40,069 nt of DNA from an uncultured Bacteroidales bacterium (GTDB lineage: Bacteria; Bacteroidota; Bacteroidia; Bacteroidales; F082): positions 1-40,069 of the forward strand of contig CAMHJX010000028.1 of the NCBI GenBank assembly GCA_946185535.1, written 5' to 3'. Positions 6,931 to 13,085 of this stretch are shown one piece after another. A model generated the notes under the pieces. The model saw only the letters and a program-made list of their open reading frames with translations, searched no databases and was not told the origin of the DNA. The translations under genes were made by a program, and so were the position numbers. The stretch's first letter is position 1, and each line of letters begins with the position of its first letter.

Positions 6931-7383
6931 TCACTCATCTTTGAGGAAATAGCGTTCGTCGATTTCAACGCCATGATCCTCAAGCAACTTTCTATATTCG
7001 GCAGGGAATTCACATTTTTTGTGATGTTCCTTCTGCCCTTTGATGTAATTCGTAACCGTTTCGACATCACTGCTTTTCTTCGACAGGGCCGCATAACCTT
7101 CTGCCCATCCGATGAAGTCGGGGAAGTTAGGTTGCGTCTTCAGCCATTTGCTCGACTTTTCCTTGAGCTCCTTCATGAAGTCTGACAGTGCGATGGTGGG
7201 ATGCAGGTCGACCAGCATGTGGATGTGATTGGGCATTCCGCCGATTCTGTAGAGGTGTGACTTCTTGTTTTTCACGATGCCATACAGATACGCATAGAGT
7301 TCCCTCTCGTGGTCTTCCACGATGGTATCCTGACCGTATTTGGTCCGGAACACTATGTGATATATGGATTGTGTGTAGCTCAT
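6931..7383 (-). CDS. IS200-like / REP-associated tyrosine transposase (Y1 family)
   Basis: 150 residues. It has the HUH metal site H53-I-H55 within GGMPNHIHMLVDLHPT and a candidate catalytic tyrosine Y113 in TNYIKGQKEHH, plus the family signature GWAEGYAALS. These enzymes nick single-stranded DNA at hairpins. No accessory tnpB gene and no obvious IS end pair is present. Upstream (7415-7646) are several hairpins of REP type, which suggests a domesticated REP-type transposase. It lies in operon orientation between kamD and kamE, 33 bases before kamE. Confidence 0.9.
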   Translation of the reverse strand: MSYTQSIYHIVFRTKYGQDTIVEDHERELYAYLYGIVKNKKSHLYRIGGMPNHIHMLVDLHPTIALSDFMKELKEKSSKWLKTQPNFPDFIGWAEGYAALSKKSSDVETVTNYIKGQKEHHKKCEFPAEYRKLLEDHGVEIDERYFLKDE

Positions 7384-7414: not shown

Positions 7415-7475
7415 CCGTAGGTCGCGACCTACGGTTACGCGATGTTCGACCTTTCAGGTCGTGAGGCACTCGGCA
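7415..7475. repeat. Palindrome cluster upstream of the transposase
   Basis: A 20-base perfect palindrome at 7415-7434 (arms CCGTAGGTCG/CGACCTACGG) is followed by CGACCT-TTC-AGGTCG at 7447-7461. An outer TGCCG/CGGCA pair (7413-7417 and 7471-7475) can close a compound structure. These are candidate recognition sites for the adjacent Y1 transposase; that link is inference. Confidence 0.7.
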
Positions 7476-9251: not shown

Positions 9252-9710
9252 TTAATCTTCCCATCTTATGCTGTTAAATGCAGTATTATAATCTGTACGC
9301 CATTCATAAGAGAATTGTTTACCATCCTTTTTTAAAGTTAATTCGTAAAAATTTACATATACCGTTTTCTGTTCAGAAAATCTCTTATTCCTAGATGTCT
9401 TCTCTATATCCCAAGTTGTAACAAAATAGCCATTGTATGAAATATCATCACTCAATTCATCAGATAGACTATTACAACCAAAAATCACCAAACTATCAAA
9501 TGTAATTTTTGTCACTTCTTTACCAAATAGCATACTACCTGATTGTTGTACTATGGAAGGTGCCTTTTGTTGCTCATAATTTATTAAATCTTCACTAATA
9601 TCAGAAACTCTAATAGTTTGATTTATGCAGCCATTGAAACTAATAATCGAAACAATTGCTATAGCAATAATAAATAACCTTCTAATAGTTTTGTGAATTA
9701 ATCTATTCAT
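9252..9710 (-). CDS. Small putative lipoprotein, function unknown
   Basis: About 152 residues from the ATG at 9710; an ATG at 9737 overlapping the KilA-N stop (ATGA) is the alternative. The N-terminus is basic plus hydrophobic and ends in a lipobox-like SFNGC, so export and lipidation are likely. The rest is polar and AT-rich, with no family recognised (...TKITFDSLVIFGC..., ...VYVNFYELTLKKDGKQF). It lies between the KilA-N gene and kamD, in operon orientation, and has no visible link to lysine breakdown. Confidence 0.6.
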   Translation of the reverse strand: MNRLIHKTIRRLFIIAIAIVSIISFNGCINQTIRVSDISEDLINYEQQKAPSIVQQSGSMLFGKEVTKITFDSLVIFGCNSLSDELSDDISYNGYFVTTWDIEKTSRNKRFSEQKTVYVNFYELTLKKDGKQFSYEWRTDYNTAFNSIRWED

Positions 9711-9733
9711 TGTATTGATTTTTAATCGTTTAA

Positions 9734-10540
9734 TCATTTCAGCACCCTCCTTTCTTCCACACCCTCCAGCACTTTCATCTGCTGAATGGCGATTTTGTTC
9801 AGTTCTATCAGTCTATCCCGTTGCGGCATACCTTTATTAATAAAGACCGCATTCAGGTTTTCCATATTCGAAAGGCAAATCAGTTGGTTGATGTTAGCAT
9901 AGTCACGGATGATGCCCTTCAAGTCGGGGTTGGCATCGCGCCATTCCTTGGCCGTCAGGCCAAACAAGGCCACATTCAGCACATCGGCTTCGTTGGCGTA
10001 AATCAAAGAGGCATGATAACGGTCAATCTCTTCTGGAACAAGATTCTCTTTAATCGCGTCAGTATGGATATGATAATTGATTTTCGCCAACTCTCTCTTC
10101 ACCGACCAACCGAGTTGCTTTTGTTCCTCTTCTTTTAGGCGTTGGAATTCCTTGGCAACATACAACTCAAACTCAACCGAAATCCAACTGGCAAACTTGA
10201 AGGCAATGTCTTTGTGGGCAAATGTACCTCCGTATCTTCCAGATTTACTTACTATTCCAATGGCACTAGTCGCTTCTATCCATTTCTTTGGGGACATGGT
10301 AAAGGCATTTAACCCTGCTTCAATTCTAAACCTATCGAATTCGATAGGGTTAAAATCTGGATTGTATAAAGATTCCCAGATACCCAAATACTCAATGGTA
10401 TTCCTATTGCGCATCCAGTTACAAACGGCAATAAAAGTATCATCTGTCTTGAACTTTGCGATATCAGTCAAAGAAATATAATCTTTGCTGTCTATCGAAA
10501 GAATCGTAATACTCGTATCTTGAACTGTCATCTTTGCCAT
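9734..10540 (-). CDS. KilA-N domain DNA-binding protein
   Basis: 268 residues. The N-terminal part (about 10-135) matches the KilA-N fold: DYISLTDIAKFK, CNWMRNRNTIEYLGIWE, the KSGRYGGTFAHKDIAFKFASW stretch and FELYVAKEFQRLKEEE. The C-terminal part is a conserved helical region seen in bacterial chromosomal KilA-N proteins (NVALFGLTAKEWRDANPDLKG...). The family is typical of phages and mobile islands. Its ATG shares one base with the kamC stop (TAATG), so it is translationally coupled to kamC. A CGAATTCG-centred palindrome lies inside its coding sequence at 10327-10352. Confidence 0.88.
   Translation of the reverse strand: MAKMTVQDTSITILSIDSKDYISLTDIAKFKTDDTFIAVCNWMRNRNTIEYLGIWESLYNPDFNPIEFDRFRIEAGLNAFTMSPKKWIEATSAIGIVSKSGRYGGTFAHKDIAFKFASWISVEFELYVAKEFQRLKEEEQKQLGWSVKRELAKINYHIHTDAIKENLVPEEIDRYHASLIYANEADVLNVALFGLTAKEWRDANPDLKGIIRDYANINQLICLSNMENLNAVFINKGMPQRDRLIELNKIAIQQMKVLEGVEERRVLK
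10327..10352. repeat. CGAATTCG-centred palindrome inside the KilA-N gene
   Basis: CCTATCGAATTCGATAGG (10331-10348) is a perfect 18-base palindrome, extendable to 10327-10352 with one mismatched pair. It encodes part of NPIEFDRFRIEAG in the KilA-N protein. It has the same CGAATTCG centre as the four palindromes at 10562-10684. Confidence 0.85.
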
Positions 10541-12012
10541 TACTCATTTCCTCCTTTCTCTCCAAGGGGGTCGAATTCGACCCCTTTGGTTTTTAAACCC
10601 CTCGAATTCGAGGGGTTTAAATATGGCGAATTCGCCATATTTAAATCTGATAAGCTCTCTAATTGTACCGAATTCGGTATATTTAGAATCTCTCTCGCCG
10701 TCTCAATCCACTCCTTATCAATCCCCAAACTTTCAGCGATATTCAGCGCCTCATGCGGCACTTCGCCGTCTTGCACCTCGACAAGTTCGTAGTTCATCGT
10801 GCCGTTCTCGAAGCCCTTCACGCGGAGGCAACGGGCATCGGTCGGCTCTATATCGTAATGCGTGGTCATGACGAGGCTCACATTGTCGCCGCGCAACACC
10901 TTCACCAAGGCCGACACCAAGGCGGTGCCCTCGGTGGGATTGGTGGTGCGGGCCGGCTCGTCAATCAACGCCACTATCTTTCTGTTTTCGCGCGATGCCT
11001 TGATGACGGCATCGATGTTCTTCATCTCTGCGGCAAACGACGACAGTCCCTTCTCGATGGACTGCTCGTCGCCAATGCAGAAGTAAATTTCATCCTTGAC
11101 GGCAATCTCGGCTGATTGGGCCGGAATGCCAAAACCGTATTGGAACAGGTATTGGCACAGCGTCAAGGTCTTCAAAACCACGGTCTTGCCACCCATGTTG
11201 GCTCCCGTGATCAGGGTCGGTTTCAGCCCGAACTCCAAGGTCACAGGCTGGAATTGCTTCTTCGTTTTTTCGAGGGCATCCTTCACTTGCGGGTGGAACA
11301 TGCCTTCGTAATGCGTCATGTCGTTGTTGGAAATGCTCGGGAAACACAATCCCCACTGTCTCATCTGCAAGGCCTTCGCCAGATTGAGGTCAATTTTTGC
11401 CAAAGCCACCTGCGCGGCTTCCAATGCTTTTGCGAATGGATGCAATTGCTTGCTCAGGTCACGGCGCACGCCTTCTTCAATCCCGGCGGCTTCCACCAAA
11501 AGCTCTTCCTGCTGCTCTGGATGCTGTCGCATCTGCGAGCGTAAATCTCTCAGCTCCTGACAATAGGAGTCGTACACATAGAAGGTCGCCATCTTCAGCC
11601 CGTCAGGGTCGAGGATGGTGATGACCTCGTTGAGGTCGGGGATTGCAACGGCATCATCCAAACCGTGGTTCCTTAGGCGTTCCGCCACATCGACGGCCAA
11701 AATCGCCAAGTGCTTTACCTCAAACAGCTCTATATCGTCGAGTACGGCATTTTGGCTCAGGTTCTTGATGGTCGTGCGGATGTCCTTCAGCCCTTGCAGA
11801 CGGAACTGGAGTGTATTAATATAAGGTATGTCGGTCTGCGCGATGAACTCCACAAACCGACGCAGCACGGCGTAGGTTTGGGCAATCTCCTCCCCTGTCC
11901 GCATCATCGGCTGGTCGAGCAGCCAACGGCGCGTATAGCCCGCTTGCAGTTCGAGTTGTTCGAACATGAAGCGCAGGCCGCAGGGCGATTCTATGTGGTC
12001 TCTCAATTGCAT
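10540..12012 (-). CDS. kamC: MutS-like ATPase, likely lysine 5,6-aminomutase reactivase subunit KamC
   Basis: 490 residues from the ATG at 12012. An upstream ATG at 12072 would add 20 residues encoded by an inserted palindrome pair and is less likely. The Walker A is GANMGGKT (270-277), the MutS type. Walker B is VALIDEPARTTNPTEG (347-362), followed by LVMTTHYD. There is no mismatch-recognition domain. MutS-like KamC beside KamB in lysine fermentation clusters is thought to reactivate the B12 aminomutase. The last 45 or so residues (...NMANSPYLNPSNSRGLKTKG...) are encoded by a palindrome array and look like an acquired tail. Confidence 0.85.
   Translation of the reverse strand: MQLRDHIESPCGLRFMFEQLELQAGYTRRWLLDQPMMRTGEEIAQTYAVLRRFVEFIAQTDIPYINTLQFRLQGLKDIRTTIKNLSQNAVLDDIELFEVKHLAILAVDVAERLRNHGLDDAVAIPDLNEVITILDPDGLKMATFYVYDSYCQELRDLRSQMRQHPEQQEELLVEAAGIEEGVRRDLSKQLHPFAKALEAAQVALAKIDLNLAKALQMRQWGLCFPSISNNDMTHYEGMFHPQVKDALEKTKKQFQPVTLEFGLKPTLITGANMGGKTVVLKTLTLCQYLFQYGFGIPAQSAEIAVKDEIYFCIGDEQSIEKGLSSFAAEMKNIDAVIKASRENRKIVALIDEPARTTNPTEGTALVSALVKVLRGDNVSLVMTTHYDIEPTDARCLRVKGFENGTMNYELVEVQDGEVPHEALNIAESLGIDKEWIETAREILNIPNSVQLESLSDLNMANSPYLNPSNSRGLKTKGVEFDPLGEKGGNE
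10562..10684. repeat. Array of four palindromes centred on CGAATTCG
   Basis: P1, 10562-10589: GGGGTCGAA/TTCGACCCC core, 28 bases with one mismatch pair. P2, 10592-10621: perfect 30-base palindrome, arms TTTAAACCCCTCGAA. P3, 10616-10645: perfect 30-base palindrome, arms TTTAAATATGGCGAA; it shares TTTAAA with P2. P4, 10666-10679: TACCGAATTCGGTA, weaker pairing out to 10661-10684. All lie in frame in the 3' end of kamC. Centres are identical; arms differ. Confidence 0.9.
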
Positions 12013-13085
12013 CTCATTGTCGACGTTTGCGTCTCGCAAACGCTCTTTGTTTGGGATGATTGCGGGACGCAATCATCGACATTGTCTTTCATTAAATCAT
12101 AAACCGGCAGTTGTATTGCCTCCGAAAGTCGGGCACAAAGCGTGTCGGAGTCCAAGGTCACGCCCAAGGGCGAGGTTGGGTTCACCGTCACAGCGATCAA
12201 CTTGCTCTTTTGCAGCACTCTAAGTGTGCCGCCAGTCTTCAAAAACATTCTGTACTGTTGCGGACTGACGAAAAACTTCGTGAAGTCGCGCACCACCAAT
12301 TCGGTGGTCTTCAGTTTCGGGTTCTTCCTCACCTTTTCGAGGAAGCCGTCCACCAAGGCACCCGCCACATAAAGCGTCTTGCAGCGGTCCATGCCCTCGA
12401 AGCGGAAGTCCTGCGACAGCGAGGAGATGTTGTTCAACTCGTGCAACGCACCTTCGTCGTCGATGTACCACACGCCTTTCTCGATGGGCATCAGCAGTTT
12501 GAGGTTGTCGTCGCTGCTGAGTCCAATGTTGATGAGGTCCACCACGAACTTGGTCTGTTGCACCAAGGTGTTTATGTTGGTCGAATAGGCCGCGCCCGTG
12601 GCGAGAATCATGCTTTGGCTCACGGCGGGCGAAGCCAAGCTCATCCGCGACAAGGCCCCGTCAATGATGACGAGTTCGATGCCTACGCGGTGCATGTCTT
12701 TCATCCAGCGTTTCAAGCCGCTGGCCGACGAAGGTCCCGACAGGAGAATCTTGCCCTCTGTCAGGGCTTTGGCCGTTACCACACGACCCAACGAGGTGTT
12801 CTCGTCGCTCACGTCGATGAGTTCGGAGACGATGCGGCGCTGCCGGTAGTGCATCTCGGACGTGCCGAAATACATCCCCTGGCGCAGGGTGATCTCCGGC
12901 TTCTGGGTGCGCGTCACCTGGTCGGTGGTCTCTCCATCAATGCCTATTGAAGTCACGGCAATGCGCTTCCTTTCGACGGGCAGGCGGTCGAGCACATAGT
13001 TCAGACTGACGGTCTTCCCCGTGTTCTTCTGCAAGCCTACGATCGAGAGGCTGTCGTATTTCAATATTTCGTTGATGAAGGACAT
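12003..13085 (-). CDS. kamB: P-loop protein, likely lysine 5,6-aminomutase reactivase subunit KamB
   Basis: 360 residues. The P-loop is GLQKNTGKT (17-25) right after SIVG, and the text resembles small-GTPase/dethiobiotin-synthetase-like nucleotide binders (IELVIIDGALSRMSLASP near the middle). It sits directly upstream of kamC, as in other lysine 5,6-aminomutase clusters, where the pair is assigned to reactivation of the inactivated cobalamin enzyme; the role is known family context, not shown here. The last 25 or so residues (after VYDLMKDNVDD) run through an inserted palindrome pair and look non-native. The stop overlaps the probable kamC start by 10 bases. Confidence 0.82.
   Translation of the reverse strand: MSFINEILKYDSLSIVGLQKNTGKTVSLNYVLDRLPVERKRIAVTSIGIDGETTDQVTRTQKPEITLRQGMYFGTSEMHYRQRRIVSELIDVSDENTSLGRVVTAKALTEGKILLSGPSSASGLKRWMKDMHRVGIELVIIDGALSRMSLASPAVSQSMILATGAAYSTNINTLVQQTKFVVDLINIGLSSDDNLKLLMPIEKGVWYIDDEGALHELNNISSLSQDFRFEGMDRCKTLYVAGALVDGFLEKVRKNPKLKTTELVVRDFTKFFVSPQQYRMFLKTGGTLRVLQKSKLIAVTVNPTSPLGVTLDSDTLCARLSEAIQLPVYDLMKDNVDDCVPQSSQTKSVCETQTSTMRCN
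12024..12077. repeat. Palindrome pair inserted at the kamB/kamC junction
   Basis: Hairpin 1 is CGTTTGCG-TCT-CGCAAACG (12024-12042). Hairpin 2 is GATGATTGCG-GGA-CGCAATCATC (12055-12077). They are separated by about 12 bases. Short flanking words recur on both sides (CATTGTCGAC at 12015-12024, TCGACATTGTC at 12076-12086), as expected if the pair was inserted with a small target duplication. Confidence 0.75.

Follow-up and report, generated by a model that had tools for sequence, protein, structure and literature searches.

A palindrome at fixed codons of KilA-N genes as the possible DNA target of their own proteins, and an array of related sites at the 3' end of kamC

The kamC and KilA-N genes and their palindromes

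The window, i.e., the whole stretch of 40,069 bases analysed here, harbors two adjoining genes on its minus strand. The first one (positions 9734–10540) codes for P0002, a protein of 268 residues that passes the Pfam KilA-N profile (PF04383; 75.8 bits against a cut-off of 23.8, 2.9e-21) and represents a full-length match to the PADLOC family PDC-S22 (433.7 bits, 5.8e-131, residues 3–264); probing its own genome (an assembly 93% complete) with P0002 retrieved one KilA-N gene. The second one (10540–12072), which we take to be kamC following the initial annotation of this DNA, encodes a MutS_V domain (Pfam, 1e-22).

The initial annotation had described, in the 3' end of kamC, four palindromes with the common centre CGAATTCG, two of them 30 bp long and overlapping by TTTAAA. 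All four were found where it had placed them, at 10567–10584 (18 bp), 10592–10621 (30 bp), 10616–10645 (30 bp), and 10666–10679 (14 bp), the whole array spanning 10567–10679, and simulations showed them to be far beyond chance: arms of at least seven bases occur at five of the six CGAATTCG sites of the window (0.025 expected; first-order Markov model, 200 simulations), and seven palindromes of any centre have arms of at least nine bases (0.23 expected; 30 simulations). Taken as sites of 24 bp on the minus strand, the four are site B (10564–10587, class GGGGT, paired helix KDVVKNW, 11 of 12 pairs matched), site C (10595–10618, class CCCCT, paired helix AVIGNW, 12 of 12), site D (10619–10642, class TATGG, paired helix FFVTDW, 12 of 12), and site E (10661–10684, class TATAC, paired helix HIIFKW, 10 of 12). 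Reading of kamC continues through the array, which adds a tail of 47 residues and the stop codon to its end (10540–10683, minus strand), and the observation that both arms change together, with the symmetry kept inside a coding sequence, was right. Five of the 30 kamC loci fetched have no adjoining KilA-N gene; their kamC ends with AREILKIKE or AREILRK and the array is absent, which implies that the array was added after AREIL. Neighboring array units mostly lie a multiple of three bases apart (24, 27, 30, 33, 42, 45, 57, 75), the exceptions being 31 (this window and its two nearest kin, L046–L048), 34 (L049), and 176 (L051).

A fifth palindrome, CCTATCGAATTCGATAGG (10331–10348, 18 bp), had been missed; it lies in the adjoining KilA-N gene, on the same strand, and forms the perfect core of a site of class CCTAT (10328–10351, 11 of 12 pairs) that codes for residues 64–71 (NPIEFDRF). 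This exact 18-mer occurs once in the genome, inside the P0002 gene, a second match having three mismatches; the reversed control likewise gave two matches. Searching the genome for further copies, as the initial annotation had proposed, retrieved 64 CGAATTCG in 3.67 Mb, compared to 12 for the reversed pattern. Among the 15 sites read of the 58 outside the window, no scattered repeat was seen, all dyads being only 8–10 bp long. The array itself is real; the home of the palindrome, however, is a fixed place in KilA-N genes rather than kamC, and the units in kamC would be copies of that segment. Among 173 genomes of the family, 32 contain two CGAATTCG within 8–38 bases of each other, 30 of these 32 being from the genus of the window (own genome included), and the reversed control matched two; at least three matches (L017, L028, and L037) are chance pairs lacking a 14-bp palindrome. 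In many genomes of the genus the array is directly followed by the KilA-N gene, and elsewhere only short N- or C-terminal KilA-N stubs are left.

Other palindromes of the window are the following. A perfect one of 28 bp, GTAGAGACGTAGCGCGCTACGTCTCTAC, lies at 417–444, and similar GTAGAGACG hairpins are found upstream of KilA-N genes in two other loci (L080 and L089). A second short one within the KilA-N gene, CTTTATTAATAAAG (9832–9845, at about residue 235), recurs in many copies from the genus. A perfect one of 20 bp, CCGTAGGTCGCGACCTACGG (7415–7434), lies just upstream of the start of an IS200-type Y1 transposase gene (6931–7383); the product of this gene matches the IS200 profile and falls below the cut-off of the REP profile, and no link of the REP/RAYT kind was found between it and the CGAATTCG-centred palindromes.

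Coupling between the in-gene palindrome and a predicted helix

The conservation of the in-gene site was checked in 299 loci covering residues 20–130, which gave 239 distinct KilA-N genes after the removal of duplicates. Most come from Bacteroidota, the others including Treponema and a small number of viral contigs, and the sample leans to near relatives, the queries having been P0002 and three of its relatives. All 239 genes harbor a palindrome of about 24 bp at the same codons, centred on the boundary between codons 67 and 68 (mostly Glu and Phe). All 12 pairs are matched in 109 genes, 11 in 87, 10 in 39, and 9 in four, i.e., at least 10 in 235; the mean is 11.26 pairs and 45.6% of the sites are perfect, compared to 6.99 and 0.023% with random synonymous codons. 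The arms are varied, with 90 distinct 24-mers, of which 25 are perfect palindromes. Twelve named loci were also fetched from among 66 listed plasmid and phage matches (Xenorhabdus, Aeromonas, Pasteurella, four Streptococcus satellite phages, Staphylococcus phage EW, Haliscomenobacter, Pontibacter, Bernardetia, and Latilactobacillus); 11 of them, including members of Gammaproteobacteria and Firmicutes, have at least 10 of 12 pairs, with an altered core in two (L368 and L369), and among these 12 only the Latilactobacillus gene has no in-gene palindrome. Furthermore, the pattern AAACCNNTCGAATTCGANNGGTTT matched 35 of 344 genomes of the order in 37 places, 31 of which (by coordinates) lie in, or at most 200 bases upstream of, a KilA-N match and six elsewhere.

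The arms were then compared with the proteins by the background-corrected mutual information between protein columns and arm positions (effective sample 85.8), leaving out residues 61–77 because the palindrome itself codes for residues 64–71. The strongest coupling joins residue 41 to arm position 5 (z 8.3), followed by 37–6, 40–7, and 36–7; residue 122 with position 9 (z 4.5) comes next, before further helix pairs, and residue 84 with position 5 is also high (z 3.7). Residues 36, 37, 40, and 41 share one face of a helix predicted at residues 35–42 by an AlphaFold model of P0002 of medium confidence (mean pLDDT 79.7, pTM 0.53), and in the window the codons of this putative recognition helix (residues 36–41, FIAVCN) occupy 10418–10435 of the minus strand. 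Asn41 stands opposite A, Lys, Arg, or His41 opposite G, and Asp41 opposite C; Lys or Arg40 goes with G (25.8 of 26.0), Gln40 with A (10.0 of 14.1), and Glu40 with C (4.7 of 6.0), Ser40 being mixed at position 6. These pairings largely match textbook residue-base preferences.

Among genes less than 60% identical outside the region, the four residues correctly gave all four bases in 16.9% of cases; 60 random sets of four variable residues reached a mean of 1.4% and a maximum of 7.6%, and none of the other windows of the same spacing that were tested predicted better. Out of the sample, eight of the 12 named loci had a full helix match: five predictions were exact (L361, L364, L365, L367, and L370, of which L364 and L365 are near-identical), two were right at three of four bases, and one concerned the Latilactobacillus gene, which has no site. 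With a partial helix match, one of the four remaining loci was predicted right. A tree built from the C-terminal part, with 222 tips, has 27 changes of residue 41 and likewise 27 of arm position 5, but only 31 of the two taken as a pair; parsimony counts 95 changes among 43 arm states. Two Treponema genes with 90% identical C-terminal parts harbor the helices PFIVVCNW and PNAVIANW, with the arms CCTAT and CCCCT, respectively.

Part of this covariation could be due to contacts within the protein, since the in-gene site also codes for residues 64–71. Synonymous sites alone speak directly for DNA and answer this objection in part. When codon 65 codes for proline, all 18 genes with Phe36 or Phe37 use CCT, compared to four of 88 without (Fisher 7.6e-17, related genes being non-independent); when codon 69 codes for Asp, it is GAT in all 27 genes whose codon 66 is ATC, and GAC in 44 of the 46 whose codon 66 is GTC. 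From the sequences, then, the arms of a palindrome of about 24 bp, centred on GAA|TTC at fixed codons, covary with one helix face of the protein encoded by the same gene, down to synonymous codons, and the target of each protein seems to be contained in its own gene. The KilA-N domain would very probably bind this palindrome as a homodimer, and both arms would change together because one helix contacts each half-site. Thus, the symmetry that the initial annotation ascribed to selection for palindromes as such would be best explained, given the arm-helix coupling, by a helix reading both halves.

Putative self-immunity and related systems

The likeliest role of such a target, argued by analogy, would be the self-immunity of a phage-defence gene. 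The Salmonella phage BTP1 encodes BstA, which has a KilA-N-like domain and acts in phage defence; the prophage itself is spared through aba, a DNA element of the bstA locus. Variants of BstA have cognate aba elements without cross-protection, and how BstA meets aba is treated as open in that report (PMC8585504). BstA and the PDC-S22 family are alike in their N-terminal KilA-N or KilA-N-like domain, in a short DNA element within their own locus (cognate-looking in PDC-S22), in their diversified classes, and in a role in defence, which is a candidate one here. The setting is also similar: BstA is a single-gene defence beside a repressor in a prophage, and in two streptococcal satellite phages the KilA-N gene lies between repressor and integrase genes. 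In the five upstream regions tested, moreover, its neighbors are genes of type I specificity, RhuM, or YhcG nuclease. We tentatively propose, at somewhat less than even odds, that the in-gene site is a cognate self-immunity element like aba: it would travel with the gene and switch the candidate defence protein off upon replication of the element carrying it, and the classes would diversify so that other elements could not borrow the immunity.

The two systems differ in several respects. The aba element has 63 bp over the start codon and direct CCCGCC repeats, whereas the PDC-S22 site is a palindrome of about 24 bp at codons 64–71, and the bstA locus contains no palindrome with 10 of 12 pairs or better. 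By sequence, P0002 is not BstA and has no detectable homology to it: the PADLOC BstA profile, which hits bstA of BTP1 (1.9e-124), did not retrieve P0002 at E-values up to 10, BLASTP gave an E-value of 0.30, and hhalign a probability of 0.1. In the PDC-S22 family a helix-base code is visible in the sequence, unlike what is reported for BstA and aba (PMC8585504). The PADLOC library gives no function for the candidate defence family PDC-S22, of which P0002 is a full-length match, and the passage of PMC12813430 on this family reports co-occurrence statistics only. An open-access keyword search for binding sites inside KilA-N genes retrieved nothing apart from BstA and aba.

As for the fold, the closest solved structures among the matches listed are the winged-helix domains of Mbp1 and PCG2 (APSES), with middling scores. 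Their helix B enters the major groove, and their target, ACGCGT, is fixed and read mainly by the wing, whereas in PDC-S22 the helix would track a diversifying palindrome in its own gene. DdrC of Deinococcus radiodurans, a DNA-damage response protein by the title of its report, resembles P0002 over much of the chain, the match being weak. A parS site may lie inside the spo0J gene, although two papers searched for it did not confirm this, and ParB and Noc differ from PDC-S22 in both fold and function. As a parallel to the helix code, the site preference of ParB and Noc was switched by a few residues (PMC7383237). The C-terminal part of the KilA-N protein (residues 132–250) shares about 30% identity with phage genes annotated as antirepressors or transcriptional regulators (Acinetobacter phages, ES18 gp79).

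The main rival is autorepression, which shares the same predicted binding and cannot be separated from self-immunity by sequence. A dimer sitting on its own in-gene site would block RNA polymerase; a mobile gene read from whichever operon it enters would need an internal operator. The arm-helix coupling fits this scenario equally, as do the position of these genes adjacent to or within other operons (kamC, type I specificity genes), the single exact copy of the class-matched 18-mer of the genome in its own gene, and the label of PHROG 2657 as a transcriptional regulator. However, autorepression leaves unexplained both the diversification of the classes (the 43 arm states and 95 parsimony changes) and the other-class sites upstream, and such a roadblock would silence downstream host genes too. 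We hold it to be possible and the less probable of the two roles. Against the proposed reading as a whole, from the helix-matched site to self-immunity, stand the coupling beyond the helix (122–9 and 84–5), the mixed pairing of Ser40, the incomplete prediction of the named loci, the two altered cores, and the absence of detectable homology to BstA; as to self-immunity, many loci are chromosomal, where immunity upon replication is less obviously needed.

Viral contigs were also searched. Three site patterns matched 110, 22, and 113 stretches, and three controls for the first pattern matched 1, 4, and 11. In the 212 of 245 stretches examined (all those of the first two patterns and 80 of the 113 of the third), there are 178 distinct class palindromes without a KilA-N match in their stretch (L406–L617). 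Outside frames of at least 80 amino acids lie 150 of the 178, although 77% of random positions fall inside such frames; of 78 with both neighbors within 400 bases, two are between divergent genes, and a stop codon lies at a median distance of 31 bases (n = 76). These isolated palindromes look like terminators and may have no relation to the KilA-N sites; due to this placement, they were used neither for nor against immunity.

Origin of the array

The array of the window probably represents the last pieces of KilA-N genes of classes TATAC, TATGG, CCCCT, and GGGGT, fused to the end of kamC, the class of the living gene being CCTAT. Its sites would be remnants of the in-gene sites of four other classes, left by the replacement of KilA-N genes downstream of kamC, a step that we regard as rather probable. 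In fact, 87 of 96 distinct upstream sites have an arm known from in-gene sites, and (by eye) they keep the orientation of the gene. Moreover, KilA-N coding fragments were found beside other genes at several degrees of reduction (residues 2–91, 2–80, 42–74, 55–73, down to the palindrome alone), in 33 of the 239 loci, and upstream in 26 of these 33; one such remnant (L099, residues 2–80) has no palindrome with 10 of 12 pairs. Short C-terminal pieces, from about residue 223–239 to the end, occur next to arrays or downstream of complete genes, and their break points resemble one another (L018, L027, L039, L040, G057, G105, and G115).

An exclusively upstream placement of the extra sites was considered and rejected, since 82 of 83 came from a scan reaching just about 100 bases past the gene, an unfair test, and a Pontibacter plasmid locus (L371) is a counterexample: just past the end of its KilA-N gene, at +833 from the gene start, there is another perfect palindrome, of the same class as the in-gene one. 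No extra GAATTC-centred palindrome was found downstream of the gene in 123 loci scanned from -700 to +1500.

The array might instead be a functional bank, whose foreign-class sites make the locus immune to the KilA-N proteins of other elements or place it under their control. This idea would fit the upstream sites, which belong to as many as four other classes and frequently have 10–12 of 12 pairs, and the finding that outside the genus none of 44 upstream sites matches the class of its own gene (4.3 matches would be expected given the gene pool, P 0.010; P 0.085 by shuffling). Inside the genus, however, eight of 52 do, without depletion, so that a strict exclusion of same-class neighbors is suggested outside the genus and absent within it. 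In like-for-like comparisons, the sites differ less than their flanks among L046, L047, and L048 (12/288 vs. 20/237), between L064 and L067 (1/48 vs. 9/127), and between L049 and L341 (0/72 vs. 4/103), but as much as their flanks among L050, L055, and L060 (20/288 vs. 18/237). No firm tendency towards a better conservation of array sites emerges overall: the pooled 33/912 vs. 129/1001 is inflated by the pairs L058/L059 and L059/L061, whose flanks are different, and without them the values are 33/768 vs. 51/807, with the pairs disagreeing. Several array sites are also decayed, and the whole genome has one KilA-N match. A bank is unlikely in our opinion, and marginally more doubtful still is its fullest form, in which a stack of foreign helix-matched off-switches, built as DNA only by gene replacement, would protect the locus (or its source element) from five KilA-N specificities.

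The remaining explanations concern the palindrome itself and are all very improbable. A hairpin formed by the KilA-N mRNA or its leader, either bound by the protein or active alone, is conceivable in that each perfect palindrome can fold, by inspection, as a 10-bp stem with an AAUU loop, and site B with its tail reads terminator-like on the plus strand; against it, the 90 distinct 24-mers show no excess of G-U over A-C mispairs (25 vs. 28, with 44 others), the core itself stays palindromic, the arms track helix residues, and no Rfam match reaches the gathering score within 9600–11000. Mutation only, with template-switch repair keeping the palindromes perfect while the arms drift together without selection, would keep coding and non-coding copies alike matched, but it predicts neither the coupling to residues 36–41, about 70–105 bases from the site, nor that identical arms reappear alongside the same helix in other groups (L361, L364, L365, L367, and L370). 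Weakest of all is a mobile mini-element like the Rickettsia palindromic elements, which insert in frame into genes: the array spacing, mostly in multiples of three, would suit it, but each unit is a piece of a KilA-N gene, the codons occupied by the in-gene site never vary, and dispersed in-frame insertions in unrelated genes were absent from all 15 own-genome loci read of 58.

Taking the remnant origin of the array together with the helix-matched site, its binding by a dimer, and self-immunity, we give a probability of about one half to the reading that every KilA-N gene of this family carries the DNA target of its own protein. Little is known on the targets of KilA-N domains outside fungi, according to PMC4862756. 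The 239 sampled genes pair a predicted recognition helix with its apparent target in one frame, which would represent a ready-made specificity code of four residues, so that the DNA target of a member could be predicted from its protein sequence. If self-immunity is true, in-gene self-recognition would reach beyond proteobacterial prophages to several other bacterial groups.
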